DNA of 64,000 nt from Odiellus spinosus. Lineage: Eukaryota > Arthropoda > Arachnida > Opiliones > Phalangiidae. A model generated the notes under the pieces. It saw nothing but the letters and a program-made list of their open reading frames with translations, did not search any database and was not told the DNA's origin. Positions 211-62,980 of the stretch are shown here, one piece after another; the first letter of the stretch is position 1, and every line of letters begins with the position of its first letter. The stretch spans positions 9,557,185 through 9,621,184 of the forward strand of contig OY987230.1 of assembly GCA_963920705.1 (NCBI GenBank), read 5' to 3'. A program made the translations under genes and the position numbers.

Positions 211-1071
211 TTAAAGTGAGGCTTTCACGGATTTTTCATGAACTCCAAATGGAAATTGACTTGCATTTTCCGAGGCATTTTCGGAAAGGTCGTTAAAAAA
301 CGATGAAAAATATATATGCCGCAACAGTAAAAATACATATTTTATATCACACTATTTTCGAAATTTTTAAAATAAAAATACTACGTCTTCACTATGGTCG
401 CGTGGCTATTGTGAAGCCTACAGTTGATTTTCGTGCGTTCTGGCACGTAATAAGATCGCTTTCGCGCGGTCTTTTTAGTTAAATTACTTAATCTAGAGAG
501 TCCTACTTTTCACATGAAAATTATCGTAATTACGTTACAAAATATATCGGATTTTTTTATCTGTTTCACATTTTCATTTAAGTTTAAAGGGAGAATACAA
601 CTAGCTAAAAACAAGTGCTTCTTTTATCGACTCCTTATGGTTTAAATAGGCCTGATCCAACAGTAAAAAACCTTACAATTATTAAACTAGAACTCAATTT
701 AAAACTTACCATCATAATTGGCTTAGCTGGATTCATTGAGATCACCCGAACTTCCCATGAAATAGGACAAGCGACCAATGACAATGATCGATGGCTTATA
801 TATATGGGGATTTCAGGATCTCCATGATCATCGGTATCTTCATGAATCCAGCTAAACCTATTTTGATGGTAAGTTTTGAATTTATTTCTAGTTTAATATT
901 AGTTTGTATGTTTTTACTGTTGTATTAGGCCTATTTAAACGATAAGAAATCTATAAAAAAAGCACTTTGTTTTTAGGTTGCATTCTCTCTTTAAGAAAGC
1001 CTCAATTCAGAGAGATAAAATTTGTAATGTAATCCGAATTCGAAAAAAAAAAGATAACAGCCTCACTTTAA
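211..1071. mobile_element. Family B TTAA-flanked MITE, split by a family A insertion
   Basis: The left end reads TTAAAGTGAGGC and the right end GCCTCACTTTAA, giving an inverted terminus with TTAA at both edges. About 410 bp in the middle (584-994) is a complete family A element, so B was there first and is about 450 bp without it. The left arm resembles 13369-13620 (shared words such as TTCCAAATG and GCATTTTCGGAAAG). No coding capacity is seen. TTAA target sites point to piggyBac- or Kolobok-type transposition; that class assignment is inference. Confidence 0.6.
584..994. mobile_element. Family A palindromic TTAA MITE, full length
   Basis: The element begins TTAAAGGGAGAATACAAC and ends with the inverted counterpart ...CATTCTCTCTTTAA. 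Inward of the ends both arms carry the family landmarks: a poly-T/ATCGA block, TTTAAATAGGCCT, TTTAAACTAGAA and CTTAGCTGGATTCAT on the left, each mirrored on the right. The arms are about 180 bp, so the whole element could fold into one long hairpin. The open frame at 615-827 lies wholly inside it and is not a gene. It sits nested in a family B element. Confidence 0.85.
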
Positions 1072-1377
1072 ATAATAGACGTCTGTGTAAATTTTGACAT
1101 CAGAGGTTAAAGGTCAGAAAGGGTGAAAAAATAAGAAATAATAGTGAAATTCGAAGCTCGGGTTTAAAACATTTATATAAGCAATACAGTGAAAGGAAAC
1201 CTAACGTAAAACTATATGGCGCTCAAACGAAACCAATTCGAAAAAGAAAAAAATTAATGCTTCCTCACGACTGAAAAAAAACTACGAGTAAAAACAATAT
1301 GGGTATTATATCTAGCGGGTCGGTTTCCTTAGTACTTGTTCCTCAAACTAAAATACACCATTACAGCCATGGTCTTA

Positions 1378-1410
<33 letters not shown>

Positions 1411-1854
1411 ATTCCCTTTTTCATTTAAATAGTAAAGTCTCTGTGACAAACATTTCTTGAAATGAAACTATGATGCGTTTATAAAATACTAATCGTTAAA
1501 TTGGTTCATTTAAAGAGCTAGGAATTCGTATAATTTTGTAAATTGAATAAGACCATCGTAAATGTCAATCAGATAATATCCGTTCCCGAAAAAATATCCA
1601 TTTCTTATTAGAGTTAACTCATCTGAATGTAAGGCAACTTTTCGTACTCATTGTTATAGGAAATTGATTCTATTTCTAGGAAATTTATGTTTAAACATTA
1701 TATTTTCTTCGTTAAAATATCATTTATTTTTAATTTCAAGATTATTTTCCTTTCACGTTAGGTAAGGCTAGAAACTTCACCACAAAAAATTTGTACCAAA
1801 GTCTAGGAGATAATCTTGTAATTTAAAAAATATTGTGTTCACGGTACTGTAATA
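1072..1854. other. AT-rich non-coding stretch with a poly-A run
   Basis: No gene is recognisable. The only landmark is an uninterrupted run of about 30 A at 1380-1409. It could be a retroposon tail, but no retroposon body is recognisable beside it. Confidence 0.5.
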
Positions 1855-1989
1855 ACTAAAATTTAAAATAACGAGGCGGATACTTCATGGAATAGATTTT
1901 ATTTTCAATTAGTTTAAAATATTAAAAATATTTAAAAACTAATTGAAAATAAAATCTATTATATTCGCCTAGTTATTTTAAATTTTAGT
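1855..1989. repeat. Large AT-rich hairpin (135 bp)
   Basis: The sequence from ACTAAAATTTAAAATAAC inward is mirrored almost base for base by GTTATTTTAAATTTTAGT at the far side, with the core AATAAAATCTATT...AATAGATTTTATT between. It is a near-perfect palindrome with a short AT loop. AGTCTAGGAGA occurs at its right edge and again about 60 bp outside its left edge. It is probably a small fold-back element; the family is unknown. Confidence 0.7.
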
Positions 1990-3424: not shown

Positions 3425-3500
3425 TTAAAGGGAGAATGCAACATAACAAGTTATTTTTTATCGATTCCTTATCGTTTAAATAGGCCTAATCCAACAATGG
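3425..3500. mobile_element. Family A MITE, left-end fragment
   Basis: It begins TTAAAGGGAGAATGCAAC and continues through TCGATTCCTTATCG and TTTAAATAGGCCTAATCC, then stops matching the family after CCAACA. The right arm is absent, so this is a truncated copy of about 75 bp. Confidence 0.75.
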
Positions 3501-5046: not shown

Positions 5047-5200
5047 TTAAAGGCCTAGGATTTATTCTGCCTGTAACCTGCCTGTTTCACTGGAAGCGGG
5101 CTCACCTTCTGAACTTCCCCTGTGGGTAGCAAGGCAAGAGAAAGCCTGGAGGGTGAGTTTGTTTCCAGGGTGACAGGCAGAAGTAATCCTAGGCCTTTAA
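5047..5200. mobile_element. Family J palindromic TTAA element, copy 1
   Basis: It runs from TTAAAGGCCTAGGATT to AATCCTAGGCCTTTAA, 154 bp. Inner arms TTCTGCCTGT and ACAGGCAGAA, then CACC/GGTG blocks, are also inverted. Two more copies lie within 1.2 kb (5361-5512, 6123-6273). TTAA at both edges matches the other fold-back families in this window. An open frame starting at 5122 crosses its right half and is not a gene. Confidence 0.8.
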
Positions 5201-5360: not shown

Positions 5361-5512
5361 TTAAAGGCCTATGTTTTCTTCTGCCTGTCACCTGCCCGTT
5401 TCACTGGAAGTGAGCTTGTCATCTGAGCTTCCCCTTGGGTAGCAAGGCGAGACAAAGTCTGGAGGGTGAGTTTGTTTCCAGGGTGACAGGCAGAAGCAAT
5501 CCTAGGCCTTTC
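5361..5512. mobile_element. Family J element, copy 2
   Basis: TTAAAGGCCTATG at the left and CCTAGGCCTTTCAG at the right enclose the same internal blocks as copy 1 (CACTGGAAG, AGCTTCCCCTTGGGTAGC, GGAGGGTGAGTTTG, GGGTGACAGGCAGAAG) in the same orientation. The right TTAA has decayed to TTCA. Confidence 0.75.
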
Positions 5513-6122: not shown

Positions 6123-6273
6123 TTAGAGGCCTAGGATTACTTCCGCTTGTCACCCTGGAAACAAACTCACCCTCCAAACTTTCCCTCGCCTGGCTTCACA
6201 AGGGGAAGCCCAAAAGGTGAGCCCACTTCCAGGGCGGCAGGCACGTGACAAGCAGAAGAAATTCTAGGATTTG
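6123..6273. mobile_element. Family J element, copy 3 (inverted)
   Basis: It starts TTAGAGGCCTAGGATTACTT and ends near AAATTCTAGGATTTGAAG. Inner blocks (TGTCACCCTGGAAACAAACT, CACCCTCCAAACTTTCC, GGGCGGCAGGCA) are the reverse complement of copies 1 and 2. An insert of about 6 bp (CACGTG region) disturbs the right arm. Confidence 0.7.
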
Positions 6274-6302
6274 AAGTCTACAGCCTGTAACGTCGCATTT
6301 CG

Positions 6303-7245: not shown

Positions 7246-7606
7246 ATCTTAATAGATAAAGATGAATAACAAACAATGGCGTTTATAAGCGTCATTAACA
7301 GAGGCTGAAGTATCCACAGCAGCCACGAACGTGGCTAGAGATCGGGGTTTGGACAAGAAAATTTCTGATTATTTTATCTTTATTCATAACTTAAAATTTT
7401 TCGAAAAAAGTCTATGATAAATTCAATGTAATCGCGAATAATTTTCCGATTATTTTTTTTATGATTAACTGATTAACTGATAGTTGTGGATTATTTTGTC
7501 CAAACCCCGATCTCTAAACGTGGCTTAGTTACTTTTATCGCGCTGTTTGCCGTTAGAGGTCGATTATAAACGCCAGGTTTGGTTATTCATCTTTATCTAT
7601 TAAGAT
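7246..7606. mobile_element. Family R palindromic MITE with a family E element nested inside
   Basis: The left arm ATCTTAATAGATAAAGATGA...ATGGCGTTTATAAGCG is mirrored at the right by CGATTATAAACGCC...TCATCTTTATCTATTAAGAT. Removing the nested element at 7336-7516 and one 8-bp duplication leaves a fold-back of about 170 bp. Single arms of R also occur at 4574 and 12549. Confidence 0.75.
7336..7516. mobile_element. Family E hAT-like MITE, copy 2 (181 bp) with 8-bp target duplication
   Basis: Ends TAGAGATCGGGGTTTGGACA and the inverse TGTCCAAACCCCGATCTCTA. Target duplication AACGTGGC is exact at 7328-7335 and 7517-7524. The insertion is inside family R, so E moved after R here. Confidence 0.9.
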
Positions 7607-8649: not shown

Positions 8650-10095
8650 TTTTTGGTAAATATCTCAACGTGATCAATATTACAACATATAACTATCTTA
8701 GCTATAGTGATAAATATGACACATGATATAACTATGGCGGTAAATATCAGGAGATACCTTAACTATGGCGGTAAATATCAGGAGATACCTTAACTATGGC
8801 GGTAAATATCAGGAGATGCCTTAACTATGGCGGTAAATATCAGGAGATGCCTTAACTATGGCGGTAAATATCAGGAGATGCCTTAACTATGGCGGTAAAT
8901 ATCAGGAGATGCCTTAACTACGGCGGTAAATATCAGGAGATGCCTTAACTACGGCGGTAAATATCAGGAGATGCCTTAACTACGGCGGTAAATATCAGGA
9001 GATGCCTTAACTACGGCGGTAAATATCAGGAGATGCCTTAACTACGGCGGTAAATATCAGGAGATGCCTTAACTACGGCGGTAAATATCAGGAGATGCCT
9101 TAACTACGGCGGTAAATATCAGGAGATGCCTTAACTACGGCGGTAAATATCAGGAGATGCCTTAACTACGGCGGTAAATATCAGGAGATGCCTTAACTAC
9201 GGCGGAAAATATCAGGAGATGCCTTAACTACGGCGGAAAATATCAGGAGATGCCTTAACTACGGCGGTAAATATCAGGAGATGCCTTAACTACGGCGGTA
9301 AATAACAGGAGATACCTTAACTACGGCGGTAAATAACAGGAGATACCTTAACTACGGCGGTAAATAACAGGAGATACCTTAACTACGGCGGTAAATAACA
9401 GGAGATACCTTAACTATGGCGGTAAATAACAGGAGATACCTTAAATATGGCGGTAAATAACAGGAGATACCTTAAATATGGCGGTAAATAACAGGAGATA
9501 CCTTAACTATGGCGGTAAATAACAGGAGATACCTTAACTATGGCGGTAAATAACAGGAGATACCTTAACTATGGCGGTAAATAACAGGAGATACTTTAAC
9601 TATGGCGGTAAATAACAGGAGATACCTTAACTATGGCGGTAAATAACAGGAGATACCTTAACTATGGCGGTAAATAACAGGAGATACCTTAACTATGGCG
9701 GTAAATAACAGGAGATACCTTAACTATGGCGGTAAATAACAGGAGATACCTTAACTATGGCGGTAAATAACAGGAGATACCTTAACTATGGCGGTAAATA
9801 ACAGGAGATACCTTAACTACATGGCGGATCTTAACTATCGTGATAAATATGACACATGATATAACTATGGCGGTAAATATCAGGAGATACCTTAACTATG
9901 GCGGAAAATATTACAAAATATCTCAACTATGGTGGGAAATAGAATTACATATCTCAACTACGGTGGGAAATAGAATTACCTATCTCAACTATGGTGGGAT
10001 AGAATTACATATCTCAACTATGGCCTAAAATATAGTATTACATATCTCAACTATGGTGCGAAACAGTACATATCCCAACTATGGTGGAAATAGTA
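8650..10095 (+). repeat. 31-bp minisatellite, about 35 tight copies plus degenerate edges
   Basis: The unit contains AACTATGGCGGTAAATA followed by TCAGGAGATACCTT. The tight part is about 8729-9820. Variant blocks are segregated: TATGGCGG with TATCAGG at the left, TACGGCGG with GATGCC in the middle, TAACAGG with GATACC at the right. Looser units extend to about 10095 (CAACTATGGTGGGAAATA). The left-hand entry sequence (GATAAATATGACACATGAT) recurs at about 9840, just after the tight array, so part of the array edge has been duplicated. Confidence 0.9.
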
Positions 10096-13351: not shown

Positions 13352-13372
13352 TGGGTTGCATTCTCTCTTTAA
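13352..13372. mobile_element. Family A right terminus abutting a family B left terminus
   Basis: GGGTTGCATTCTCTCTTTAA is the family A right end. Its TTAA (13369-13372) is also the first four bases of the family B left end, so the two families share one TTAA. Confidence 0.65.
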
Positions 13373-13620
13373 AGTGAGGTTGTAACGAACTTTTCAAGAG
13401 TTCCAAATGAAACACGAGTTGCATTTTCGGAAAGATTTGTTAAAAGATTATTCAATTCATAGAATGAAAATAAATATTTCATAATCACAATTTTCTTTGC
13501 CCCGCTACGTCATCACCATGGTTTCGCTTAAATTATAATCTAAATGTTGATTCTAGCCAGTCAAAAACGACGTGATACGGTTTTTTCGAAAGTTATTGTT
13601 AATTACGTTGCATAATGATT
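13369..13620. mobile_element. Family B element, left arm
   Basis: It begins TTAAAGTGAGGTTGTAACG and shares GTTCCAAATGAAA, GCATTTTCGGAAAG and TAATTACGTTGC with the copy at 211. The right terminus is not found before the palindromic element at 13634. Confidence 0.6.
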
Positions 13621-18799: not shown

Positions 18800-18952
18800 T
18801 AAAGGACTTATACATGTTGTACATTGTATAAATGGATAGTTACAGTTCCCAAAAGGAAAAGCTTTAACATGGCGAATTAAGATACATTAAAAAATTGACT
18901 TGCACTGTATTGAATGAAAAACTACTTGTAATGTATTTTCATTCAATATTAT

Positions 18953-43010: not shown

Positions 43011-43013
43011 TTA

Positions 43014-46458: not shown

Positions 46459-46462
46459 ACTT

Positions 46463-48913: not shown

Positions 48914-50411
48914 AAACGTATTCGTGCCTTCATCTAATTTTACTATAATCACCAACTCGATTATATAACTCATTTCCTATTGGCTACTTTTCTCTTGACG
49001 TCTTTAAAAAGGTTATTTTGCCGATAAGTTTAAATCTGGGTCGAGTTCTCCTCCTAAATCCATTCTCTCTCTATCCCTGTCTGACTCACTAGGCTATGAG
49101 AGGGATCAAAGCGAGTAAAATAAGTCTAACGAAACAAGGTTTCCTGATCCCCAAATCCCTAACCGATTTTATCAGAAACAAATTAAACTACACCTTAATT
49201 TTTACAAATCTCATAAAGCCTTAAAAACACCAAAATGTACTCCGATTATGCACGAACACCTGAATAATAACAAAGCAAAGCTAGCCAAAAGTTCAGGAGT
49301 TCACCCCGGGAAGCTACCACAAAATTTATACCATCAAGCTTCATTATAATGTTATGCAATCAAGATTAGAACGAAAAAATCTATCCATTCATTTTGCCGT
49401 TTTCCCAACGCGATATCTACTTCATTACCATTCCATCGACACTTTCACGGTATATACATCGGGAAAAAATTCACAAAGGGATTTGAAAGTGGTCCTCGTC
49501 ATAGGGGTTAACTTGGCATAAAAAGCGTCGAGCAAAGCTTTATCATTATTAAGTAGAGCTTAATTCCAAACTATAAGTTTTTCGCGGATAGCTCGAGTTC
49601 CCTCTAGAGCGCCAATCAATGAAAAAGAAAATAGATCGAGATGAGCCGAGAACGGTGGGAGGAACAGAAGGAATGGGGTATGAAAACTACCATTAGCAAA
49701 ACTCTCAATGAGGATATTAGGCGCGTTAACGGACTAATAAAGTACAACGTTCGCGTAAAGACCGGGAATGCGACCAATAGTTCTATCAAATATTCGCGCT
49801 AAAATTCAAAACAAGATGAGCAAAACAATATACGCAGTCTCAAAAGAGACATGAACGTGTTCGTGTTCATGAAGTTAATTATTTTAATTGTTACACGTTC
49901 TTCGAGGAATTTTTCACTCTCTATATCATTCCTGGAACAATATAGCTATCTTCAACTCCATGGTCCACACGTAAGCGTTCAAAGAATGATAGCTTAATGC
50001 ATGGGCGCCCCCAGACCATCATTTAGGCCTTTGGTCACTCAGAATTCTCACTTGCACCTACCCCCCCCCCCCCGGCAAAAATGTTCTCGGCGGAGCCCCC
50101 CTACATTTTTTTAATACGTGTCAATGTCATTGGGCCATCATACACCATTATGGGATAAGCAAATATAAGCTACTCTGACGACGAGTTTGAATTATGTTAT
50201 TTCTCCTATATTTTCGTATAATTTTAATGCTATTTCTCATTTCTTTTCTATAAACCTAAAGGCATTTCCTGATGTCACCTCGAGGGATTTTTTGCTCATC
50301 TATCCCTCCCTCCGAGTTAGGGATAGAGTGGAAATAATACTGTAAAAATATCTAAAATAAAGCAGATAATTTCCTGTTTAAAATACCCGAAATTGAATGC
50401 TTATCATGTCT
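48914..50411. other. Repeat-poor stretch
   Basis: Few MITE words occur here, and G+C is modestly higher. A run of about 14-15 C lies at about 50060-50074. Two overlapping small frames start at about 49619 and 49641 (listed). No conserved domain is recognised. Confidence 0.35.
49641..49802 (+). other. 53-codon open frame with protein-like composition
   Basis: The peptide begins Met-Ser-Arg-Glu-Arg-Trp-Glu-Glu-Gln and is charged, with Trp, Lys and Arg spread through it, unlike the Ile/Phe/Tyr-rich translations of AT-rich DNA. An in-frame stop lies just upstream of the ATG. I do not recognise it and see no splice or regulatory evidence. Confidence 0.15.
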
Positions 50412-50696
50412 TTAAAGGGACTATCTGCGATATTTAAATCACCTTTCAAGTCGCCTTCTTTTCGAGCTTAGCAGATGACGTTGACCATAACAAACTATAC
50501 AGGCAAAGCTAGGCTGTGTGCATAAGGAAAGAACTATTTAAAGGGGCAAATTTCAAAGCAGATAAGGTCTTTAACGAAAGTATAAAGCTTTATCCCAAGC
50601 ATTCCTACCAGTACGTCCAGCACTAAAATTGGCGCGAGTAACGTTCGGAAAGAAGACGTCGTGAGAGCTAGCAGACGATGTTTATAATCCCTTTAA
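50412..50696. mobile_element. Family M TTAA-ended segment
   Basis: TTAAAGGGACTATCTGCG at the left and TAATCCCTTTAA at the right give TTAA-AGGGA termini. GAGCTTAGCAGATGACG and GAGCTAGCAGACGATG are subterminal direct repeats. A related left end is at 56252 (TTAAAGGCCCTATCTG). Confidence 0.45.
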
Positions 50697-51317
50697 ATAG
50701 AAAGAAAACAAAACGATAATAAACGCGTTTCAGCAAACCGGTGACAATCAGTACAATACCCATTTTAATCTAAGTATATCGGCGGAATAAAAATAAGATA
50801 AAAGTTTCCGGAAAACAACATTCGCGTCTTCAGCGGCATTCACAAGTTTCCCGCGAATTAGGAATTTCGAGACGAGCAAACTAGAAGGAAAAGCCGTTAA
50901 GAAGAGGTTATCGAGACTCGACACACAAAGAAAGATTCGTGCGTAAAAGAAAGCTTTAACTATAGCGCGGCTAGCCGTTAGGGATAGCGTACCACCTTTG
51001 CATTAATTCCCTATTAAAAGTGAGGGGGTCAAAGTGGGTGGTAATCACAATTTCGGGACCCAGCTTTAGTATAGTATAACGGTAACGAGCCGGGATCCAA
51101 TTATAATCAAAGAGGAAGCCCCCCGCTAGCGCGGGTCTTCTAAAACCTCTAGCGCCAAAACTTGAGAAACGCTATTATCGTAAAGGGTCCTTCTCCTACG
51201 CGCCAATCTTCTTGGAAATCCCTTTTACATATCGGAAAAGCTGGCGTCAGGTCTGCCAAAATTTATAACTAGCTAGAGAATCCCGCGGGCGAGTAATGAG
51301 ACGTCTTGTTAGGCACC
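50697..51317. other. Repeat-poor DNA
   Basis: A hairpin GAAGCCCCCCGCTAGCGCGGGTCTTC lies near 51115-51140. No gene is recognised. Confidence 0.3.
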
Positions 51318-51447
51318 TATAAAACTCGTCAACTATCGTCAAGAACCGTTGAATTTTCAGAACGCGCGAAGTCCAGTTTCACTCTATCTGTAAGCGCAAG
51401 TAAATTATCCTTCAAGTTTAGAAGACGACATACTGCGGGGACAATGA
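51318..51447 (+). promoter_or_regulatory. Possible TATA promoter with a short first coding exon
   Basis: CCTATAAAAC at about 51318 is a good TATA box. About 110 bp downstream, ATG at 51444 is followed at once by a near-consensus donor (ATGAA|GTGAGT), the layout of genes whose first coding exon is only Met plus part of one codon. No downstream exon could be identified, so this remains a prediction from signals alone. Confidence 0.22.
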
Positions 51448-52894
51448 AGTGAGTCCGATTTTCTCAGTCCTTTTTAACCCCTTAAATGTTTAGACAGTTC
51501 AGTGCATTATTGGCACTGCCTACTTAGTTCCAATCTCAACCGCTAGAGAGAGCAACTTCTAATTCCGTATCTCGACCGTTTAGGGTTTTGGATTTTTTTC
51601 ACTATCTGACGACAACACTTTCAGAACCACATACCAATCATAATACGCCTTGTTCTAAACTTAAAGCATGATTTATATGTGCTGTAAGCTACTGGATACT
51701 TAAGGACCATGATAAAATCCACCCACCCTCTCAACTCGACCAAGGTTTAGAAAAGCGTAATATAACGGTTCTCATACAAACTTAAATCTTGGCATAATTA
51801 ACAACGAACACGTGACCTGTTTTCAATAGTTAACGTACAAGGTCACCATGACGTTGTACCCAAAGTCATTGTTTGATTTCTAGATAAAATGGTTTTTTCT
51901 CCTTTACCAGGCAAAGATCATCCTGAATATCTTCCATATAAACATAGAAAAAGCTTCGTATACACTATAAACACTTCATAAATTTCAATGAGTAGGGAAT
52001 ATTTCCCTAGACTCCAAATCAAACAGAAATTTTGGCTTGAGCTGAAAGCGAGCCTTCGTCTCTTGACTTACTATTCATACCCAAAAGCTCATTTTGTACC
52101 TAAGGATATGGGGACAAAGATATTCTAAACCCATCCTAGCCTATATTTAATACAGATTTGAATTTTTTTTTAAATAAAGTAAATTCTAGCTCATAGATTT
52201 AACAAAGAATGCGAAGATAGTAACGGAGGATAATGCTGAATCCCAATATTGTCATAGCCAACTATCGGTTGTCTGATTTTACGAAAAGGTCATAGCTTCT
52301 TTGTTTAAGGCGAGAGAGTAATGTACGATTAAAGTACATATTTAAAGGAACTAACAACTCTGTAATTTCGCCCCTGGAAGTTGTCTTTACTCTAACATGT
52401 CACTAGATCTCGCCCGCAATGTTGGATGGTCAATATAAAGTGTGATAACCAAGTTAAAAAAAACTCGAGCCTTTAAATGTATACATAAAACCTTACAGGG
52501 GTCGTGGATTTTACTATTCCAATATCTCTTAAAAACGAAACCAAATCTATAGAGATCGATTGAAGAAGCAGAAGCATATAGTAATTTTCGAATTGAAAAC
52601 TCAAACTTATTATGACTCTTCGTAAGTTCGAAGCGTATTGTTCTCGAAGATTAACATACGTACTATTGGACAAGAGTGAAGAGGTAGCAAAGCTAGCAAT
52701 AATTGACGCGGGTCAATACACAATGTTAAATTTCGTACGGTTTAAAAGTAGTCCAAGCAATCTTATGATGAACAAGATAATACTAAGAAATAAATTATGT
52801 AGCGTGAGAACATGAAAATTGAATGGGGCTCAAGGTTCCTAGACTCTAATGTTTCCACTTTGCAGCTAAAAGGTTAGTTTTCGCGGTTATACAC
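51448..52894. other. Repeat-poor AT-rich DNA
   Basis: Frames 52473-52673 and 52612-52815 on opposite strands are unrecognised. If the promoter at 51318 is real, this would be its first intron or transcribed region. Confidence 0.3.
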
Positions 52895-52947
52895 TCTATC
52901 AAAAATAATAGAATAGACACTATTCTATTCTTTTTATTTTTGATAGA
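52895..52947. repeat. 53-bp hairpin
   Basis: TCTATCAAAAATAATAGAAT and AGACACTATTCT are mirrored by ATTCTTTTTATTTTTGATAGA, leaving almost no loop. Confidence 0.75.
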
Positions 52948-53785
52948 ACTATGAGCATAAAAATTTTGAAAACGGGGCGAAAATCTTTCAAAATGGGGAA
53001 AATTAACCATGTGTCCGGTCAAACCAATGAAATTTAGTAATTTTAGGTGGAAAACTATGATGGATGCTACAAAAACTAGATCATTATGTAACGAAATTTT
53101 CTAACATATCCCCAGTAGAAAAAAAATTAAAAGTACTCACCATAGTTGACGTAGATGAGAAAATCTTGCAAAAAAATCCAGCCAGTTAAGAACTGGTTGC
53201 CGTCAACATGGCGCGTTAAGCCTTGGCCTAATTTACGGGCATCGATCGAGATTACTTTTTCATGCTTTCGGGTTTTCACTGATTCCTTCGTAATTATCGT
53301 CCATTTCCGTACAATATTTCACACGGTGGTGGTTGAAATACTCATTAATCTTCCGGTAACAATAAAAACAGTCCGACATTCCATATTTTTCTGAAATATT
53401 AAATTTATATCTTAGTAACGATAAGCATATTCTGTCGTAGATTTAAGCCTATCACTCATCACGAGTAGAGGAGGGCAGGGGGTGAGGGGAGGACAATGGG
53501 GGACACAAAGGTGTCTGGCGAAAGCAAGGAGCATTATAGAAGGATTGGAAGCGAGAAAAGATGCTGGACGTACATATATATAAAATGTGGTCTAGGAACG
53601 TATTAATTTGAAAATGTATGCCTAAATATTACTTTAGGTACTATTGAAGGTTATTAAAAATCAGGTTTTATCACTGGGAGGGGCTAAAACAGGGTCGTTA
53701 GACGGTAGATCGCGAAGGGTAACGGATTTTGCGAATAAAATTAATGTTTAGTGATAAGAACATTATTGTTTTGGTGCTGAAGCAG
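52948..53785. other. Non-coding DNA
   Basis: Frame 53155-53394 is unrecognised. A purine-rich patch (GGGCAGGGGGTGAGGGGAGG) lies near 53474-53495. Confidence 0.3.
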
Positions 53786-53832
53786 GTTTGCCACATACAT
53801 GGAAAACCTGGAAAAGTCAGGGAATTTAATCG
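53786..53832. mobile_element. Family F end fragment
   Basis: TTTGCCACATACATGGAAAA then CCTGGAAAAGTCAGGGAAT is the reverse complement of the inner end of family F (TTCCCTGACTTTTCCAGG). Confidence 0.6.
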
Positions 53833-53865
53833 TTCAAAACTAAAATAGTGGTATCTAGCATTACT

Positions 53866-54447
53866 CCGATTCGAGAACCAGTTTCGTAGCGATTCGGTTT
53901 CAACAACCGATAGATGAAGCTATGATAAATCGATTTATAAAGATAAAGTGTGAACACGTGACGCTTAAAACGATTCCTGCCGATATGAATATCGGTTTGA
54001 TTTTACCGTTTCAAACCGATTAAGAAATGCTAGTGTGACCGTAGCTACAGATTCGGTTTCGACAACAGATAGACGAAACTACAATAAATCGATTTATAAA
54101 GATAATTCGTGAACACGTGACGCTTATAACGATTCCTGGCGATTTGAATATGGGTTTGATTTGACCGTTTCAAATCGATTTAGAAATCCTAGTGTGACCG
54201 TAGCTGATTTGAAACGGTCAAATCAAACCGATATTCAAATCGTCAGGAATCGTTTTAAGCGTCACGGTTTCATGCATTATCTTTATAAATCGATTTATTG
54301 TAGCTTCATCTATCGATTGTTGAAACCGGTTCCCGAAGCAGTTTCGAGAAATCGAATACAATCGATTGGATAAAAGACGGTTTCCCCGTTCACATGACTA
54401 AAGCGAAACGTTTTGAAACGGTTTAAAATCGATTCCAAGGCCTATTA
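53866..54447. mobile_element. Cluster of three truncated family D copies
   Basis: Two plus-orientation right halves (53866-54046 and 54047-54205), each ending GTGTGACCGTAGCT, are followed by a minus copy (54206-54447) ending TTCCAAGGCCTATTA. The frame 54161-54373 is internal. Confidence 0.8.
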
Positions 54448-54964
54448 TAGAAATTTAAAATATATTCTGAATTTATTGAACAAAAGTCCAACATCGTTAA
54501 AGTTTAAAAAAAAAAAAAGAAGCTTCATTAAGGGATCGAATAACTTTATAAGTTGAAAGAGGAGAAGAAACGATTTTTATACATTAGTCACTTCTGTCTG
54601 TTTCAAATTACTATTTTTTTCTAACTTAACTTTACCTTCTTTCTTAGAGTCAAAGGGATAGTTCCAAAAGAGTTGAGATAATTTATTTTAATATCAAATA
54701 GATGCTGTCACAGTTTTTTGAATTATAGCGTCATTTTCAGAAAGATCGCTAAGAACAAAACCGATTAAAAATATAGGTATATTTTATGAAAAAATTACCA
54801 TAATCTTAAAAAATATTATTATAACCGCATCTTCGATTTTTTTTGGATACAATATAGATCCAAGACTACAGTTTATCCTGGTAGTTTACAAAGTCTAAAG
54901 CTCACGGGTTTTAAATCAACGTTTATCAAGCGTTTTTCTTTCGCTTTTCCAAGAGAAGCTTATA
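54448..54964. other. AT-rich non-coding DNA
   Basis: A short poly-A tract lies near 54508-54520. Nothing else is recognised. Confidence 0.35.
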
Positions 54965-55285
54965 TTAAAGGGAAACTTGGAGCTAAAAATAGAACAGCTT
55001 TTGAATTTATTTTCACGATTTTCAGACACGTTTTGGTGTTTAAATTAATTTTTGAAGTCTGTTAAAATTTGAAAAAAGAGTAAATTATGTAAATTCGCGT
55101 CTATCATATTAATTCCAACTTCAACAGCGCTTCCAATGTCCTAATATTAAAAGAATAGGTCGCCACTTGATACTCAAGGTTTTAGGCATGAAACGCCGGC
55201 CTATTCTTTTCATGTTAGAACTTCACAAACTTCAGAAGTTAATTTAAACACCAAAAAAAGTGTCAAAAAATTCACAATTTTGGGT
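54965..55285. mobile_element. Family C MITE, left arm, hairpin and shortened right arm
   Basis: TTAAAGGGAAACTTGGAGCT, AACAGCTTTTGAATTTATTT, CAACTTCAACAGCGCTTCCA, the central hairpin around GCATGAAACGCCGGCC, then TTAATTTAAACACC. The right terminus is lost. Confidence 0.75.
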
Positions 55286-56251
55286 GTTAATTATGATTTG
55301 GCGCAAATTGTTAAAGATCGTGTAACTAGCCGTTTTTAAATTGAGAATCGAAATAAAAGGAAAAGATGCGGCGAACGAAAAGGTTTAGAATTAATGCGAG
55401 GAAAAAGATCGGATGACTTTGGGATACAAAGAAATAACAATTCGCGAAAGGCCAAAGAGTTTTGTAGTTGGACACGAGCGATGCTCGCCGCCGTCCGGGA
55501 GATTAATGTTTCCACGCAACAAAAACGCTTTTTGCGATTAAATAACATCGCGACTTTATCTTTCCCTTTGCTTTTTTCAACACAGACGAAAACCTACTCC
55601 TGAAAAAGGAGAAAACAACTAAAAAATAAAAAGACCACAAGGGGAAAGAAATGCGCGTGAGATTTCAAAACGTTCCAGTGAGTTTGGATTTGATTTAATG
55701 TTATTTATATAGAGTGTATCTTGGTAACTTGGTTAAGTTGGTTTCATTTATTATAATAATATGGGAGGAAATTTTTTGCCCACGATTCCACGAAAAATTA
55801 GGACTCCAAAATTTTGTCGCCTACCCCTTTTGGAAGGGGTCAAAATAAACGCGAGACGTATATCAATCTCACGATCTGAGAACTCAGGGTCCCTCCGCGA
55901 AAAATGACCCCATTGAGCCCCCTTTTTGATTTTTAGGGTGGGTGGGGCCCAAAAAGCTTCCCCCGCGGCCCAAGCGAACAATCAGTAATACCTCTGCTCA
56001 CTATCCAATAATTAGTGCCACAAAGAGTTTAAAACTTATCAGAATACGAAAGATCTTAACTTCAACCTTCTTGTTATTATCATAAGTACATAAGTATGCT
56101 ATAATGTCCATTTCTCATAATTATGAATTTCGTGAACCTACAGAGGACGAGAAAAAAAAGTTCTCCTCGGAGTTCTATGTTTAACTGACATAATTATGGT
56201 ATTATTCGTATTTCTTTTACAATTTCTTTCATCTTAAACTGATCTTGACAA
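55286..56251. other. Non-coding DNA
   Basis: Frames at 55336-55603 (both strands) and 55751-55981 are unrecognised. Confidence 0.3.
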
Positions 56252-56350
56252 TTAAAGGCCCTATCTGAACAAGAATTTACCCCTTTAAAATCATCTTGCC
56301 TTCAGATACAGCCTAACTTTGACCGTACAATTTCTTATCTTTAAAGCTGC
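56252..56350. mobile_element. Possible family M fragment
   Basis: TTAAAGGCCCTATCTGAAC, CTTGCCTTCAGATACAGCC and TTTGACCGTACAA loosely follow the order of words at 50412-50500. Confidence 0.3.
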
Positions 56351-56792
56351 TATAAAAACGCGGAAAGACCCTTAAGCTGTAAAGTACCAGAAACCTCTTT
56401 TTAACGATCATGAAACAAAAAAAGAAGATCCTTCTTAGTTTGGTTTTTATACCGATTAATTCGGAGTTACGCTTATATAATTGACTTTAACAAAAGGGAG
56501 GAAAAGATTTTGTAATTTAAAACCAAATAATTAAATTGTATACAACTATTTTACGAATTCGGATTTCGTATTAATCATCACAATATACCCTTGAAACGAC
56601 CTTCAACAATGACATTTTACTCCTAACACGTACTGCCCTTTAGAATTTGAAAACTCAAACAAATTCTGGTATTATATTGAATTTTAATTGGAAATTGGAC
56701 CTTGTTTAACATACTCAATCATCGTCAGAAATAAGAATAAATAAATTGAATCTCGTTCAATAGAAACAAAATTTTAATCCTCTGTCAATAAA
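56351..56792. other. AT-rich non-coding DNA
   Basis: No feature recognised. Confidence 0.35.
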
Positions 56793-57373
56793 GCTACGGT
56801 CAAACTAGCATTTCTAAATCGATTTGAAACGGTAAAATCAAACCGATATTCAAATCGCCAGGAATCATTTTAAGTGTCACCTGTTCACGCAGTATCTTTA
56901 TAAATAAATTTATCGTAGCTTCATCCGGTTGTTGAAACCGAATCGGTACGAAGCTGGTTCCTGAAGAGCTGCGTTCATACAAGGCCTTGGAATCGATTTA
57001 AACCCTTTCAAAACGTTTCGCTAGAGTCGTGTGAACAGGAAGCCGTCTTTTCTCGAATCGATTTGATTCGATTTCTCGAAACCGCTTCGAGAACCAGTTT
57101 CATACCGATTCGGTTTATACAACCGATGGATGAAGCTACGATAAATCGATTTATAGAGATAAAGTGTGAACGCAAGATGCTTAAAATGATTCCTGTCGAT
57201 ATGAATATCGGTTTGATTTAACCGTTTCAAACCGATTAAGAAATCCTAGTGTGACTGTAGCTTTGCAGTTTCGAAAAATAGAATCAAATCGATTCGAGAA
57301 ACTACGGTTTCACGTTCACACGACTCTAGCGAAACGATTTAAATCGATTCCAAAGCCTAGTATGAACGCTGCT
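56793..57373. mobile_element. Cluster of three family D copies in alternating orientation
   Basis: Minus truncated copy 56793-56966 (AAGCTACGGTCAAACTAGC), plus full copy 56967-57262 (AGCTGCGTTCATACAAGGCC to GTGTGACTGTAGCT), minus fragment 57263-57373 ending AGTATGAACGCTGCT. Frames 56800-56982 and 57021-57230 are internal. Confidence 0.82.
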
Positions 57374-57931
57374 TAAGAGTCAACAACGTTTTCAAATTTT
57401 ATTTTTTTTCTATATACTTAGATGCCATCTATAGAAATGTCTCCATATCATTTATCAATTGAAAAAATTCTAAAAATCTTTTATTTATTTTGGTAAAATA
57501 CTCCAGTTCAATAATTAGTATACAAGACTATTAAAATTTTCGGTGAATTTAATAGTTTAAACGAGGATATTATGGATTTATCAGTTTGGAGAAACGATAG
57601 ATGGTGATACATTCTCCATAGAAATATATTTCAGGTTTGCCCCATTGAGTTTTAGATAAAGGAAACTAACAGATTTAACTTTTGAAGAGTAGTCGGATTC
57701 TCGGAATCAGTCGAATTTGCACAATATGGAGAGAGCAGAGAGCCAAGGGTGAAGAAACCCTGACATTATGGAACCCCCACTGAAGGAGCGCTTGTACAAA
57801 GGGCGAATACCCTAACTCCCTCACTAAGGGGGATGACATCGAGGTGAGAGATAGAAACCTCTGACGTATCAATGTCTCCCATTCCGGCTCCCTGTTTGGG
57901 ATTTAGTAAACTCTTTCTCTGATCAGAGTAA
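57374..57931. other. AT-rich non-coding DNA
   Basis: No gene recognised. The minus frame 57675-57872 has no recognisable domain. Confidence 0.3.
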
Positions 57932-58042
57932 AGCCGGATTCACACACACCTATTTTCACGCGTTTTACGCTCGCGCGCTAATTGTACTTCTACGAGCACA
58001 CGAGCGTGAAACGCGTAAAAATAGGTCTGTGTGCATCCGCCT
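57932..58042. mobile_element. Family W 111-bp palindromic MITE with TAA duplication
   Basis: AGCCGGATTCACACACACCT and ATTTTCACGCGTTTTACGCT are mirrored by GAGCGTGAAACGCGTAAAAA and TAGGTCTGTGTGCATCCGCCT. TAA flanks both ends (57929-57931, 58043-58045). The frame 57982-58176 starts inside it. Confidence 0.82.
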
Positions 58043-58327
58043 TAAGAAGCTCTAGCGTAGTACATCTTGAAAATTCGCGAGTGATTCTCGAAAGATGTTT
58101 CAAAACGATTTCAACAAAATTCAGTTTCTTTGGGTGCGGGACTTCTGAAATGGGCACGGTATCGCAATCAGTTTGAGATTATATTGGCAGCGCCAGGTGG
58201 TTGGATGAGTAGGCTATTGCCTATGTTTAAATTTCAAAGGACCCCCAAAATCCACTCGAAGGGGCTCAAAATTCTTTCAAAGTGGGCCTCAAAATCCTCA
58301 CGTTCCTTCCTCAAAAGAGGCCCCTAA

Positions 58328-58492
58328 AACTACGTTCACACTTGACACTTTGGAACCGTTTTCAAACCGTTTCAAATCGACTTTTTTAGATATTTGTTTG
58401 GTTTCTTGATCAAAGGTCTACACGGATGACTCCAAAATTTTATAATTTGACCTTTCCAAAACGGTTTCAAAGTCTCTAGTGTGAACGCAGCT
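58328..58492. mobile_element. Family D' MITE (165 bp) with TAA duplication
   Basis: Ends AACTACGTTCACACTTGACA and TCTAGTGTGAACGCAGCT; inner blocks AACCGTTTTCAAACCG and CCAAAACGGTTTCAAAG are inverted. TAA flanks both sides (58325-58327, 58493-58495). The second copy is at 61118-61299. Confidence 0.82.
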
Positions 58493-58644
58493 TAAATTTA
58501 ATAAGCGTACATGATCATGATGAAACGGAGAAAAATGGCAGTCACACAATCGGTGTTTCGGTGTAAAGTCTTTAATACTAGTTTAAGACCCCACCTTGTT
58601 TATCCTCTGGGTATATACAGCGTTGTTTCTTAACAATAACTCGT

Positions 58645-58717
58645 GTATCTATGGTGTAGTGGTTATCACGTCCGCCTCACACGCGGAAGGTCCCAGGTTC
58701 GAGCCCTGGTAGATACA
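58645..58717 (+). tRNA. tRNA-Val (anticodon CAC)
   Basis: This 73-nt gene folds as a complete cloverleaf. The acceptor stem pairs GTATCTA with TAGATAC, the anticodon stem TCCGC with GCGGA, and the T stem CCAGG with CCTGG. The anticodon loop CTCACAC puts CAC at 58678-58680, reading GTG valine codons. The T loop is TTCGAGC. Internal promoters are present: an A box around TGGTGTAGTGGT and a B box GGTTCGAGCCC. The 3' CCA is not encoded, as usual in eukaryotes, and the discriminator base is A. No intron is seen. A T-rich RNA polymerase III stop (TTTTG then TTTTTG) starts a few bases downstream. This is the only intact tRNA in the window and looks functional. Confidence 0.97.
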
Positions 58718-58719
58718 GT

Positions 58720-58730
58720 TTTGTTTTTGA
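58720..58730 (+). terminator. RNA polymerase III T-run terminator of the tRNA
   Basis: TTTTGTTTTTG follows the tRNA 3' end by two to three bases, the standard pol III stop. Confidence 0.75.
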
Positions 58731-58904
58731 AACATTTTTAATTAGAATGCAATTAGTTAGTAATTAAACTGTGACAGGCAGCTAATTCCAAAAAACAAGA
58801 TTTTATATTGTTATGATTTCTTATAACCAATATTATAATTTATGAAACTGTAGGCGTGGCAATATAACTATCGATTTTAAATGCTAATCAAATTCCCTTT
58901 AGAA

Positions 58905-58938
58905 CATATAAAAATCCGTAACAGCCTCACTTTAGAGC
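58905..58938. mobile_element. Family B terminus fragment
   Basis: GTAACAGCCTCACTTTAGAG is the family B end with TTAA decayed to TTAG. Confidence 0.5.
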
Positions 58939-58944
58939 ACAAAG

Positions 58945-59345
58945 TTAAAGGGAAACTTGCAGCTAAAAGTGGAACAGCTTTTTAATTTATTTTCGGAACC
59001 ACCATATGCCAAAAAGGTATTCAAGAATTTTTAGACACTTTTTTGGTGTTTAAATTAATTTGTAAAGTTTGGTAAGGTTTGAATAAATGTACATATAAAT
59101 ATAAAGTAACATATACACTAATATAGAAAATGTGGCCTTTTTCCAAGGTTGGTTTAAAATATAGGATTTTCTATACTTTTGCCAACCTCGAAACTAACAA
59201 AAAGAGTGGTTACATAGAACCCGTTTCTACGGCAGATGTTGCCTTTTTTTCAACGGTGGAACGTATATAGAGTTTATAGATTCAACTATTGGGGCCAATC
59301 ATATTATTTCAGCCTTCAACAGTGCTTGTAATGTCTTAAGATTAA
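58945..59345. mobile_element. Family C MITE, left arm interrupted by about 180 bp
   Basis: TTAAAGGGAAACTTGCAGCT through GTGTTTAAATTAATTTGTAA is typical. At about 59105 the sequence switches to unrelated DNA (GAAAATGTGGCC ... TTTTCTATACTTTTGCC, with internal hairpins) and resumes at about 59290 with GGCCAATCATATTATTTCAG and CTTCAACAGTGCTTGTAATG. The right arm is absent. Confidence 0.65.
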
Positions 59346-59681
59346 AAGAACATTGTGAGAAGCAATATACAAATCTAAGCCAATTAATAGGATATACTTA
59401 TGCAAAACATTCAAGTTTTGACGCCGCTTAGTTTTTTGATCGCCAAATGTCTATTATAGGAAGTAAAGTACCACATGGCTGCCTGCGTCATAACATTGAA
59501 GTTTTCTCGAGTTTTTTACAATTTATTTCTAGGGAAAGAAGCGAATTTTTGAGAGGCTCCCATATATTTTCTTCTTCTTCTAATTGTCCCCAGCACAATT
59601 AAAGTTTTTAGTCTTTTGGACTAGTATACTAAAACATTGATCGCATAATTTTATCGAGTGGTTTCCATATTTCATTAATCT
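59346..59681. other. AT-rich non-coding DNA
   Basis: No feature recognised. Confidence 0.35.
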
Positions 59682-60070
59682 TTAAAGGGAAACTTGGAGC
59701 TAAAAATGGAACGAATTTTGAATTTAATTTAAGAAATCACCATTTGAAACGAATTTGAGAATTTTTTCACAATTTTTTTACACGTTTTTGGTGTTTAAAT
59801 TAATTTCTAATGTTTGATAAAATTTCTATAAAAGTAAATAGGCCGGTTTGACGCCCAAGACCTTGGACATCAAACGCCGCTCCATTCTTTTAATGTTAGA
59901 ACATTATAAGCGCTGTTGAAGGCTGTAATAATATGATTGGTCAGAATTTATATTACTGTTAAAGAAATTTGATCAAACTTTAGAAATTAATTTAAACACT
60001 AAAAACGTGTCTAAAAATTCTGTAAAAAAAATTAAATTAATTCAAATTTTTAGCTCCAATTACCCTTTAA
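59682..60070. mobile_element. Family C MITE, full length (389 bp)
   Basis: TTAAAGGGAAACTTGGAGCT to AGCTCCAATTACCCTTTAA with both arms and the central hairpin GCCGGTTTGACGCCCAAGAC / TTGGACATCAAACGCC. Its right TTAA (60067-60070) is also the left TTAA of the adjoining family A element. Confidence 0.88.
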
Positions 60071-60475
60071 AGGGAGAATGCGACCTAATAACAAGGTGTT
60101 TTTATAGATTCCTTATCGTTTAAATAGGCCTAATTCACCAATAAAAAGTTTACCAACAAATATTAAACTAGAAATCAGTTTAAAACTTACCAGGAAAATA
60201 GGCTTAGCGGGATTCATGGAGATCATCTGAATTGTCTTCGTGTAAGGTCTAGCCCGTCATTCACGCGAGACTTACAATCGCGTTCGATTGGTCGCTAGAC
60301 CTTATACGCGAAGAAATCAGGATCTCCACGAACCCTGCTAAGCCTATTTTCCCGGTTTGTTTTAAATTTCTAGTTTAATATTTGTTCGTAAATTTTTTCA
60401 CTAGTGGATTATAGGCCTATTTAAACAATAAGGAATCGATAAAAAAAAATCACTCGTTGTTGGGTTGCTTAAAAT
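60067..60475. mobile_element. Family A MITE, full length except eroded right tip
   Basis: TTAAAGGGAGAATGCGACCT at the left; right arm GATTATAGGCCTATTTAAAC, AATAAGGAATCGATAAAAAA, GTTGGGTTGCTTAAA, where the final ATTCTCCCT block is lost. The centre has GTCTAGCCCGTC and GGTCGCTAGACC. Confidence 0.82.
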
Positions 60476-61071
60476 TTTTTAGTCTGAATTATAATTTTTT
60501 ACTAGTATACTACAATTTTGATCGAATAATTTAACCAAGTGTTTTCAATATTTCATTAATCTTTAACACGCAGACCTTATTTTGTTCATGTACAACTACT
60601 TTCAAACGTCGTCTGCTATTCGTTAGAAAAAATAAAAATGTCAAAACATCCAGCTGGATAGGAATTTCCAACAACTAACATCCCATATAATAGTATAAGC
60701 GAGTAATGTAGGAGTATTTAACTTATCAAAACTTGCAAGCTGCTTTTTCTTGACTGTGATATTATTATTGGTTATGCTGTAGTCCACCCAACGTAGGGCT
60801 TTATAACAGCTTAATACCTTTTTCTTTAGTCGCTTTGAAAGTCTTTAGATATTAGTAAGAAATTTCAATAATAAAAAGAAAAATGCGTGAATTGGAAGAA
60901 ATCACGATGTTAAGTTGGAACCATATTAATGCCGATACAGAAATTCAAATAAAATCGGAGAAATGTTTCGGCAAAAGTACAAAATTGCTAACAATTTTGG
61001 ATGACGGTAAGCGAGTTCATTATATCTCACGGAAAAGTAAAAATCTACCATCCTCGTATGTAGTTCTAAAG
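60476..61071. other. AT-rich non-coding DNA
   Basis: Overlapping opposite-strand frames at 60883-61129 run into a family D end and are unrecognised. Confidence 0.3.
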
Positions 61072-61731
61072 CTGCGTTCATACTAGGGCTTGGAATCAAT
61101 TTAAACTGTTTCAAAATAGCTACGTTCACACTACAGACTTTGAAACCGTTTTAAACCGTTTTGGAAAGGTCAAATAATAAAATTTTGGGGTCACCCATGT
61201 AGACCTTTGATAAAGAAACCAAATTAATATCTAAAAAATCGATTTGACGACTCGAAACGGTTTGAAAACGGTTTCAAAGTGTCAAGTGTGAACGTAGCTA
61301 ATGTTTCGCAAGAGCCTTGGGAACGGGAAACCGTCTTTCCTCGAATGGATTTGATTCGATTAAAATCAAACCGTTTCAAATCGGTTAAGAAATGCTGTGA
61401 CAGTAGCTTTATAGAATCGATTTCAATCAGTTTCTCGAAACTGATTCGGGAATCAGTTTCAAACCGATTCGGCTTCAACAGCAGACAGATGATTAAATAA
61501 TAAATCCGTTTAGGAAGGTAATGTGCGAACAGATAGCGCTTAAAACGATTCGGGGAGATTGGAATATCGGTTTGAAATCGATTTGGATAGGCTAGTGTGA
61601 ACGTAACTCAAGTAGTTTCGAAAAATCGAATCAAATCGATTCGATAAAAGACGGTTTCTTGTTCACACAACTCCAGCGAAACTTTTTGCAACAATTGAAA
61701 TCTATTTCAAGGCCTAGTTGGAACGCAGCTT
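61072..61731. mobile_element. Family D cluster, first copy split by a D' element
   Basis: A plus D copy (GCTGCGTTCATACTAGGGCT ... CTGTGACAGTAGCTT, ending about 61409) is interrupted by D' at 61118-61299. It is followed by a plus right half (about 61410-61613, ending TAGTGTGAACGTAACT) and a minus fragment (61614-61731) ending CTAGTTGGAACGCAGCT. Frames 61224-61500 on both strands are internal. Confidence 0.78.
61118..61299. mobile_element. Family D' MITE nested in family D
   Basis: AGCTACGTTCACACTACAGA and CAAGTGTGAACGTAGCT are inverted ends, with AAAACCGTTTTAAACCG-type inner blocks. AAT occurs on both sides, and joining the flanks restores the D sequence TTTCAAAATGTTTCGC. It is the reverse orientation of 58328-58492. 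Confidence 0.85.
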
Positions 61732-62640
61732 TAGTATATATCAATCGTTTCCATACATTTTTTTAGCATATTATAAACCCTGCAAATGCGGATGATGTAA
61801 CGTGATATCAAAATTCCAAGGCTAAATAGTTACTCATGTACAGTTATCAGCTAGTAGTAGACTAGACCCAGGCCTGGAAATAAGGATTTCTTTAAAACTA
61901 GTCCTCATGATTGGTGACGCTATGGTCTGCAAGAATAAAGTGGTCCTTAGAACCAGCGACTACTGGTCCCATTGTAATATTATTTTCTGGTGAAGGCTCA
62001 AAACAGGTCAGCCGTCGCACGAACACTTGCGAGAAGATGTGAATCGTCCTGCACTTGCCGCGTAGTTTTTACGACAATATTCATTGTAACTTAATAGCAT
62101 TAGCAAAGGCTGGTAACCAGTTGGTAACTTGGTAAGCCCTTCGTCTTAGTCTGGGCTCAAGATTGATTCATTTATTGTGTATAAAAGAAAAAAGTCTTGG
62201 AGTAGAAATTTTAAGAAAGCTTGAATTTTTATACTGCTCCCGCTTCAATTCCCATTAAACAACTTAATTATTAAACTACACTTAATTTTTCAGTAAAAAA
62301 CTGGTCTACACAATTAATAAACTGGTTTTGCACCAGTGGACTTGTCAGCTACAGGCTTGATGCCTTGATATCAAAATACATAATTATCTCGGTAACAGTA
62401 ACAATGTCCGTCACTAATGCTGTCTACAATATTACCTCTCCGAATACCATCATCCAAATACTAAATAAAATATAGAATTATATTTTAACAGTAACTATGC
62501 CCGTCACTAACGCTGCCACATTCGTAATCATTTTGTAATTAAAGTCCGCTATTTTTGACGGGTAATAGCTAGCTATATAAGTTCAGATTTGAAACGTTAT
62601 GGGTATTTAAAGGAGCGTTCACACTAGTTTAAAAGCGTTA
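61732..62640. other. AT-rich non-coding DNA with a short direct repeat
   Basis: GTAACAGTAACAATGTCCGT then CACTAATGCTGTC (from about 62393) recurs as AACAGTAACTATGCCCGTCA then CTAACGCTGCC (from about 62488), spacing about 95 bp. Both contain an ATG followed by similar codons, but the frames are short. Confidence 0.4.
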
Positions 62641-62980
62641 TTAAAGGGAGAATGCAACCGATCAACAAGTGATATATATCGATTCCTTATGGTTTAAATT
62701 GGCCTAGTCCAACAGCTATTAAACTAGAAATAAATTTAAAACTTACAATCAAAATAGGTTTAGCTGTATACATGGAGATCCTGAACTCCTCATATAAAAA
62801 CTACCGACCAATGACATTGATCGATGGCCCTTATATGGGGAATTCAGGATCTCCAAGAATCCAGCTAAGCCTATTTTCCGGGAAAGTTTTAAATTTATTT
62901 CTAGTTTAATATTGGTTTGTAATTTTTTTAACAGGTGAATTAGGCCTATTTAAACTTGTTAGGTGGCATGCTCTCTTTAA
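62641..62980. mobile_element. Family A MITE, full length (340 bp)
   Basis: TTAAAGGGAGAATGCAACCG to GGTGGCATGCTCTCTTTAA. The arms are slightly shortened (no AAGGAATCGATAAAAA block on the right). The centre has CGACCAATGACATTGATCGA. Confidence 0.88.

Follow-up and report, generated by a model that had tools for sequence, protein, structure and literature searches.

TTAA-flanked repeat families of Odiellus spinosus as probable non-autonomous members of the Kolobok superfamily

A window of 64,000 nucleotides from Odiellus spinosus (contig OY987230.1, here C6; C6:9557185-9621184) carries several repeat families, designated A, B, C, J, L, M and O, which begin with AG and mostly stand directly beside TTAA. 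A search of the genome (443 Mb, 286 contigs) strongly supports the view that these families are non-autonomous members of the Kolobok superfamily, that is, miniature inverted-repeat transposable elements (MITEs), moved by several Kolobok transposases whose genes lie outside the window. The evidence comes chiefly from family A, the arms of which resemble the terminal inverted repeats (TIRs) of a Kolobok element, K4, and from the behaviour of TTAA as a target site.

Family A and the Kolobok elements K1-K5

The ends in the window were located by an exact listing of termini and then read with their flanking bases. The A-related copies are as follows, with the strand in brackets where one was assigned; similarities were obtained with the basic local alignment search tool (BLAST).

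588-990, complete A1 fold-back, TTAA at 584-587 and 991-994; nested in a B element; about 80-84% identical to the K4 TIR
3429-3497 (+), truncated A1, left end only, TTAA outside; 92% to the K4 TIR over 72 bp
14437-15307, A1 flanked by TTAA at both ends; another repeat (14709-14938), present again at 23785-24017, interrupts the interior
26592-26746 (-), truncated A1 right part, outer bases TTTA
29120-29251 (-), truncated A1 right part, TTAA outside
29830-29904 (+), truncated A1 left end AGGAAGAATG, TTAA outside
37046-37130, internal fragment of family A by BLAST, no terminus
45088-45097 (+), A-like terminus AGGGAGAATG; first 10 bases and TTAA shared with A, interior unrelated by BLAST
48482-48909, complete A1 fold-back, TTAA on both sides; 81.5% to the K4 TIR over 238 bp
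60071-60468, A1 fold-back, TTAA on both sides, the right side without about 9 terminal bases
62645-62976, A1 fold-back, TTAA on both sides; 72.5% to the K4 TIR over 153 bp

The four A copies counted as flanked by TTAA on both sides are 588-990, 14437-15307, 48482-48909 and 62645-62976. The copies related to A in the window are A1, the K4-like type, and no copy of A2, the K1-like type, was seen in it.

K4 spans C5:4600786-4606529 and is taken as 5,744 bp (left end L093:787, right end L098:530). Its left boundary, TTAA followed by AGGGAGCATGCAACCTAATAACAAGTG (terminus AGGGAGCATG), lies upstream of a Kolobok exon match at C5:4602549, and the same terminus, reversed, ends at C5:4606529 against a second TTAA. 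The two TIRs are 98.5% identical over the 530 bp read. Between the ends lie a THAP match (C5:4601545), the exon match, 58% identical to that of another element, K1, and a P2RX7_C match (C5:4605007). The outer ~227 bp of K4 are 80-85% identical to the A arms in the better copies, and by these alignments an A element resembles a head-to-head fusion of two K4-like TIRs.

When 27 A elements were compared with the TIRs, 14 matched that of K4 best (72.5-85.5%) and 13 that of K1 (73-80%); the set comprised 24 distinct exact-end elements from the fetched loci, that of L097 included, and three of the four complete window copies, 14437-15307 being excluded. The two resulting fold-back families, A1 and A2, have the first 10 bases AGGGAGAATG in common and diverge further in. 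Window termini were also compared with K1 and K4 by scoring the first 60 bp against 1848 control sites. For nine of the ten window A ends the score with K4 was equalled by at most 2 controls, and for the tenth, at 29251, it was reached by 15.

No Kolobok-type enzyme was found in the window, and its Pfam scan (six frames, stops read as X, outside the largest tandem arrays) gave no match to piggyBac or THAP. Genome-wide, at least 150 THAP matches were recorded (150 scored of 638 candidates), and comparison of 30 of the THAP loci revealed one multi-copy family, L068-L081, the matches of which stop at TTAA followed by AGGGATAATGAAA. The element K1 (L082:264-6335, 6072 bp, terminus AGGGATAATG) has TTAA on both sides and a TIR of about 580 bp at 98.6%. 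It carries a THAP domain (E 8.8e-17), one exon with GDGRADSPGYSAKYGTY, another with VTDKH...LDNWH and, on the opposite strand, two P2RX7_C (PF20478) stretches (E 1.9e-7 and 3.6e-6). The motifs GDGR..., VTDKH and LDNWH in the exons would represent the DDD/E and C/DxxH residues of the catalytic domain. With the K1 exon as query, 57 matches were obtained among 64 candidates, 17 of them at 100% identity, which suggests recent activity. These features appear to fit Kolobok, with KolX pointing to the Kol0 lineage; the KolX proteins of that lineage resemble the P2X7 C-terminus, according to the available excerpts of PMC9587614.

Three further boundaries were recognised, namely K2 (TTAA followed by AGGGTTACCGACAG, terminus AGGGTTACCG) and K3 (TTAA followed by AGGACCACCGTCAT, terminus AGGACCACCG), each with two left ends and one right end, and K5 (TTAA followed by AGGGATGCTGCCAAGG, terminus AGGGATGCTG), represented at two loci by the left end alone. 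KolX-like proteins matched within K2 and K3, and PF20478 gave at least 93 matches genome-wide among the 150 scored out of 159 candidates; K4 contains one of these matches. Kolobok is represented in this genome by at least five coexisting families (K1-K5) that differ in their termini.

In the proposed mechanism, a Kolobok transposase that combines a THAP domain for DNA binding with a DDD/E-type catalytic domain would recognise AG-starting termini, mostly AGGGA, and would cut and insert at TTAA, leaving one TTAA on each side. The enzymes would be supplied by related autonomous elements with differing TIRs; K4-like transposases would have moved A, K1-like ones A2 and L, and other Kolobok enzymes B, C, J, M and O, for which it is the ends that point to the superfamily. 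The fold-backs probably arose via loss of all sequence between two TIRs, and it is possible that transposases cross-mobilise families via the common terminal motif. We put forward, with considerable reserve, that long-TIR Koloboks repeatedly shed TIR-only hairpins by a regular route (for example via a hairpin or gap-repair intermediate whose breakpoint is constrained), giving A1 from K4 and A2 from K1, and that Kol0 transposases may share substrates via the outer AGGGA. In the best copies the arms of A1 and A2 extend for nearly equal distances into TIRs of 530-580 bp, to about 226 and 232 bp respectively, and the two families together amount to thousands of ends.

Two candidates from these searches were set aside. 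L097, considered as a Kolobok end, is instead a complete A2 element beside a Kolobok fragment, and the long A-to-A spans L031 and L032 with L033, considered as autonomous, hold no open reading frame of more than 139 amino acids.

TTAA target sites and the remaining families

TTAA is a real target duplication, as evident from the A ends of contig 1 and from the empty sites of K1. Two checks avoid the circularity of picking 10-mers after TTAA. Bases 16-215 of the K4 TIR, used as a query against the window, found 11 copies that reach the terminus; TTAA lies directly outside the A terminus in nine of them, one of the other two has TTAA beside a truncated end, and the last has TTTA. Contig 1 contains 42 exact AGGGAGAATGCAAC A ends in its first 3.9 Mb, of which 38 are bordered immediately by TTAA. 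In L082 the insertion reads TTAA, K1, TTAA, and the empty copies L050 (96.7% over 122 bp), L015 and L011 carry a single TTAA; for a second K1 copy (L083) the empty-site matches are less clean.

The window holds 25 occurrences of TTAAAGGG against 5.7 expected under an order-4 model. At the repeat ends given by gapped BLAST, TTAA is the commonest 4-mer (27 against 10.3 expected), and some 4-mers exceed it in enrichment ratio, e.g. AGCT with 15 against 2.2. Exact ends were counted genome-wide for A, C and B, the reversed pattern serving as control. The A end TTAAAGGGAGAATG gave 16,221 exact occurrences against 5 (A1 and A2 together), AGGGAGAATGCAAC 10,091 against 1, the C end (19 bases) 1,686 against 0 and the B end (18 bases) 130 against 0.

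Six pairs of AGGGAGAATGCAAC ends in the same orientation, ~1.76-1.79 kb apart, occur among the first 100 listed places on contig 1:

3557028/3558796, 3578635/3580403, 5497204/5498988, 6856860/6858645, 7214184/7215942 and 7238396/7240174, same orientation, AGGGAGAATGCAAC pairs

Two of the pairs were compared; in both, TTAA stands at the outer end and is missing at the inner one. Each pair may represent a longer element in which the terminal sequence recurs internally.

The remaining families are represented in the window by the following copies.

215-1067, complete B element flanked by TTAA at both ends, with termini AGTGAGGCT and a short TIR; its terminal bases agree at 9 of 10 positions, and the A copy 588-990 lies inside it
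13373-13431 (+), B end; its TTAA (13369-13372) doubles as the TTAA of an oppositely placed A-type end
27145-27205 (-), B-type terminus AGTGAGGCTCTCCC, TTAA outside, different interior
38231-38290 (+), B-type end AGTGAGGCTGACAC, TTAA at 38227-38230, on the other side of which stands a second B-type end AGTGATGCT
58879-58931 (-), B end, outer bases TTAG (one change)
15870-16310, complete C fold-back, TTAA on both sides
39507-39754 (-), truncated C right part, TTAA outside
54969-55272 (+), C left end, TTAA outside; right end not intact
58949-59100 (+), C left end, TTAA outside; right end not intact
59686-60066, complete C fold-back, TTAA on both sides; right TTAA (60067-60070) common to the next A copy
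63789-63933 (-), C right part AGGCAAACTT, TTAA outside
5051-5196, J fold-back, TTAA on both sides
5365-5509, J copy, outer bases TTAA and TTCA
6127-6275, degraded J copy, left TTAG, right end unclear
43853-43912 (+), second L-like left end (L2) AGGGATACTA, TTAA outside; 1 of 1848 controls scores as high against the K1 TIR
44206-44333 (+), L left end, TTAA outside; 71% to the K1 TIR by BLAST over 112 bp (44225-44333)
50416-50692, M element, TTAA on both sides; 8 of 10 terminal bases match
21000-21636, O fold-back, ends corrected to AGGACATGGCA; right flank TTAA, left flank ACAA

An earlier note, made from the letters of the window, had held that all of these families start immediately after TTAA, and this is borne out for A, B, C and J and less firmly for M, with its 8 of 10 matching terminal bases, and for L, of which left ends alone were seen. 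O had been misplaced: the span assigned to it, 21068-21557, is internal to a palindrome of 20998-21638, which passes the two TTAAs chosen for it by 66 bp on the left and 77 bp on the right. The further claim, that complete copies of A, C, J, M and O end in mirror image at a second TTAA, holds for copies of A, C and J, in part for M, and fails for O on its left side. Most families had also been called long fold-backs, a description that suits A, C, J and O and does not suit B and M; the B element 215-1067 is not one, and a fold-back searched for in M at 50416-50692 was not found. 'B' is a short common terminus, AGTGAGGCT, carried by several different interiors. That the interiors are unrelated was confirmed, in that BLAST within the window gave no match of at least 50 bp between any two of the named families.

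Beside TTAA, A, C, L and M start with AGGGA, single altered copies apart, and agree with the AGGRR (R, purine) of the T2-MITE-like group; B (AGTGA), J (AGGCC) and O (AGGAC) lie outside it. Termini of the form AG..CT, in accordance with 5'-RR..YY-3' (Y, pyrimidine), are found in A, B, C, J, M and O and in K1-K4, with K5 and L represented by the left end alone; the exception is the C end at 15870, which starts with AT and reads ATTG instead of AGGG.

Three TTAA sites are common to two opposed element ends, namely 13369-13372 (A and B), 38227-38230 (B and B) and 60067-60070 (C and A), as though an element had used the TTAA next to another as its insertion site. Along contig 1, the C ends are strongly clustered among the first 100 listed: 6 lie within the first 15 Mb, and the stretch from 15.4 to 27.1 Mb holds the other 94. 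Another repeat of the window, K at 7253-7599, was excluded from the TTAA families, its match continuing beyond TTAA into TC. The window's family P palindromes carry duplications of 7 bp; hence TTAA is not a property of every palindrome there.

Competing explanations and known parallels

The earlier note had proposed one transposase for several of the families. That a single Kolobok transposase mobilises all of them via a TTAA-AGGG terminus would agree with the AG-rich ends beside TTAA in the named families and with the identical first 10 bases of the two fold-back families, A1 and A2; it nevertheless appears improbable, in view of the different TIRs of at least five Kolobok families, of the resemblance of A1 and A2 to different autonomous elements over about 230 bp (best copies), and of the comparison of B, C, J, M and O with K1-K5, which share the first bases alone. 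The terminus AGGGAGAATG covers two fold-back families with different closest partners, and the proposal of one enzyme did not hold up.

It is likewise unlikely that some of B, C, J, M and O belong to another TTAA-specific superfamily, their likeness at the ends being coincidental. Sola3, for example, uses TTAA. The failure to find a partner for these five families would be expected on such a view, as would the absence of fold-backs in B and M and the departure of B, J and O from AGGRR. Against it, AG..CT termini and TTAA are present together, one C end and one O flank excepted, and the autonomous Koloboks of Xenopus vary alike, with AGTGA, AGGAC and AGAGC in the available excerpts of PMC6004289.

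Mobilisation by piggyBac transposases, which target TTAA too, can be dismissed with near certainty, since all seven families begin with AG and not with the CCY given for piggyBac termini in the excerpts of PMC2872659, since a single match to DDE_Tnp_1_7 (PF13843; at least one, a lower bound) was obtained in 443 Mb, at C89:21948 (L051), and since K4 already makes it unlikely for A. The alternative of the earlier note, 'Kolobok- or piggyBac-like', is accordingly narrowed to its first half, which the THAP, exon and KolX matches of K4 support for A. Its call for an autonomous element led to K4 with A-type termini and to no partner for B, C, J, M or O; its call for empty-site alignments yielded the single TTAA at K1 sites and no clean empty site for the window's own elements. 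The piggyBac-type match in L051 itself has several open frames, one with a cysteine-rich end.

Several observations weigh against assigning the families to a group of Kolobok enzymes. The termini of B, J and O do not follow AGGRR; the searches made brought up no autonomous element for B, C, J, M or O, and the ends of these families are unlike K1-K5 beyond the first bases. For C, a by-eye comparison of the first 100 of the 1,686 C-end places with the K1-exon and PF20478 matches showed none nearby. K4 was read at its ends, and its continuity between them is assumed. Against the first 60 bp of K1, only two of six window A ends outscored every one of the 1848 controls, and the other four have 4, 31, 121 and 259 controls at or above their score; the L end is reached by 31. 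The third catalytic residue (E) was not located in the K1 exons, and Pfam models match none of the catalytic exons, so that the superfamily name rests on termini, target-site duplication (TSD), THAP, DxxH and KolX together.

The TTAA evidence has its own adverse points. Within the window, TTAA ranks fourth among 4-mers by the rate of AGGG after them and fifteenth for AGRR, and in an ungapped boundary scan it accounts for 3 of 83 pairs with identical outer 4-mers; we think that other repeats dominate that scan. The empty-like match obtained for one A2 element is weak (77.7% over 94) and shows GTAA in place of TTAA, and for the window's own elements neither a joined-flank search in the window nor the fetched loci gave a clean empty site.

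Weighed together, we still consider the Kolobok explanation very probable, and the closest parallel to it is the T2-MITE/Kolobok system of Xenopus. T2-MITEs are defined by TTAA and AGGRR, comprise 16 major subfamilies and are attributed to THAP-bearing Koloboks, and the ten full-length Xenopus Koloboks have AG termini and TTAA flanks, one flank being altered (PMC6004289, in the excerpts available). TTAA with terminal AGGRR in A, C, L and M and the attribution to THAP-bearing Koloboks are common to both; the present case differs in the organism, in the long MITE arms matched to particular autonomous elements, and in B, J and O, which fall outside AGGRR.

TTAA TSDs, RR..YY termini and a C/DxxH motif common with four other superfamilies are ascribed to Kolobok in the excerpts of PMC9587614. 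K1 and K4 resemble the Kol0 lineage in the TTAA TSD, RR..YY termini, DxxH and a second gene like the P2X7 C-terminus; their TIRs are long in comparison (530 bp or more), and it is KolX on which membership of the lineage rests. The CMITE/piggyBac MITEs of Acropora likewise include several families with TTAA TSDs in one genome, but have CCC termini, conserved interiors and piggyBac partners (excerpts of PMC2872659), as compared to the AG termini, unrelated interiors and Kolobok partners found here.

The present families are not named in the titles and abstract openings of the Kolobok MITE and TTAA literature searched, which included few subscription papers. The kind of system is already known, and this is a good new example of it and no new kind. 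A passenger (A1) has been matched with a likely driver-type element (K4), starting from a pattern in raw sequence, and its occurrence in one genome makes testable how closely MITE and transposase must match.

Further repeats and genes

A family of THAP genes of 801 amino acids (L084, L085) was considered as a partner and rejected; it is a P element, with CGGTGCC ends and not TTAA. The element (L084:510-4289, L085:509-4288) has an open frame of 801 amino acids with THAP and TNP-like RNase H domains and a GTP-binding insertion. The two copies, on two contigs, are 99.97% identical over 3780 bp, and the element may have been active recently.

Another fold-back family, with CAAGAATCC ends, has the following copies.

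18946-19279 and 40005-40321, and L055:2606-2921; the window copies have 7-bp duplications, ATATTAT and GTTACAC

These duplications make another type of transposase likely, and Pfam gave no match on five frames of this family. The Pfam matches of the window are a PF07592 DDE transposase fragment (three frames, best E 4.1e-8), an ABC-transporter fragment (E 4.6e-8) and weak others; the two fragments fall in the scans of 21001-44000 and 44001-64000.

The 64 kb also contain six large, highly regular tandem arrays, a multi-copy repeat family and a tRNA gene.

8729-9819, tandem array, 31 bp x 35
25814-26439, tandem array, 26 bp x 24
34109-35781, tandem array, 15 bp x 111
37131-38122, tandem array, 18 bp x 55
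40880-41372, tandem array, 20 bp x 25
41371-41816, tandem array, 20 bp x 22
18529-18806, 30199-30801, 43012-43303, 46458-46897, 53866-54448, 56790-57377 and 61066-61739, window repeats of a multi-copy, partly palindromic family
58644-58718, tRNA-Val (CAC) gene, amid repeats

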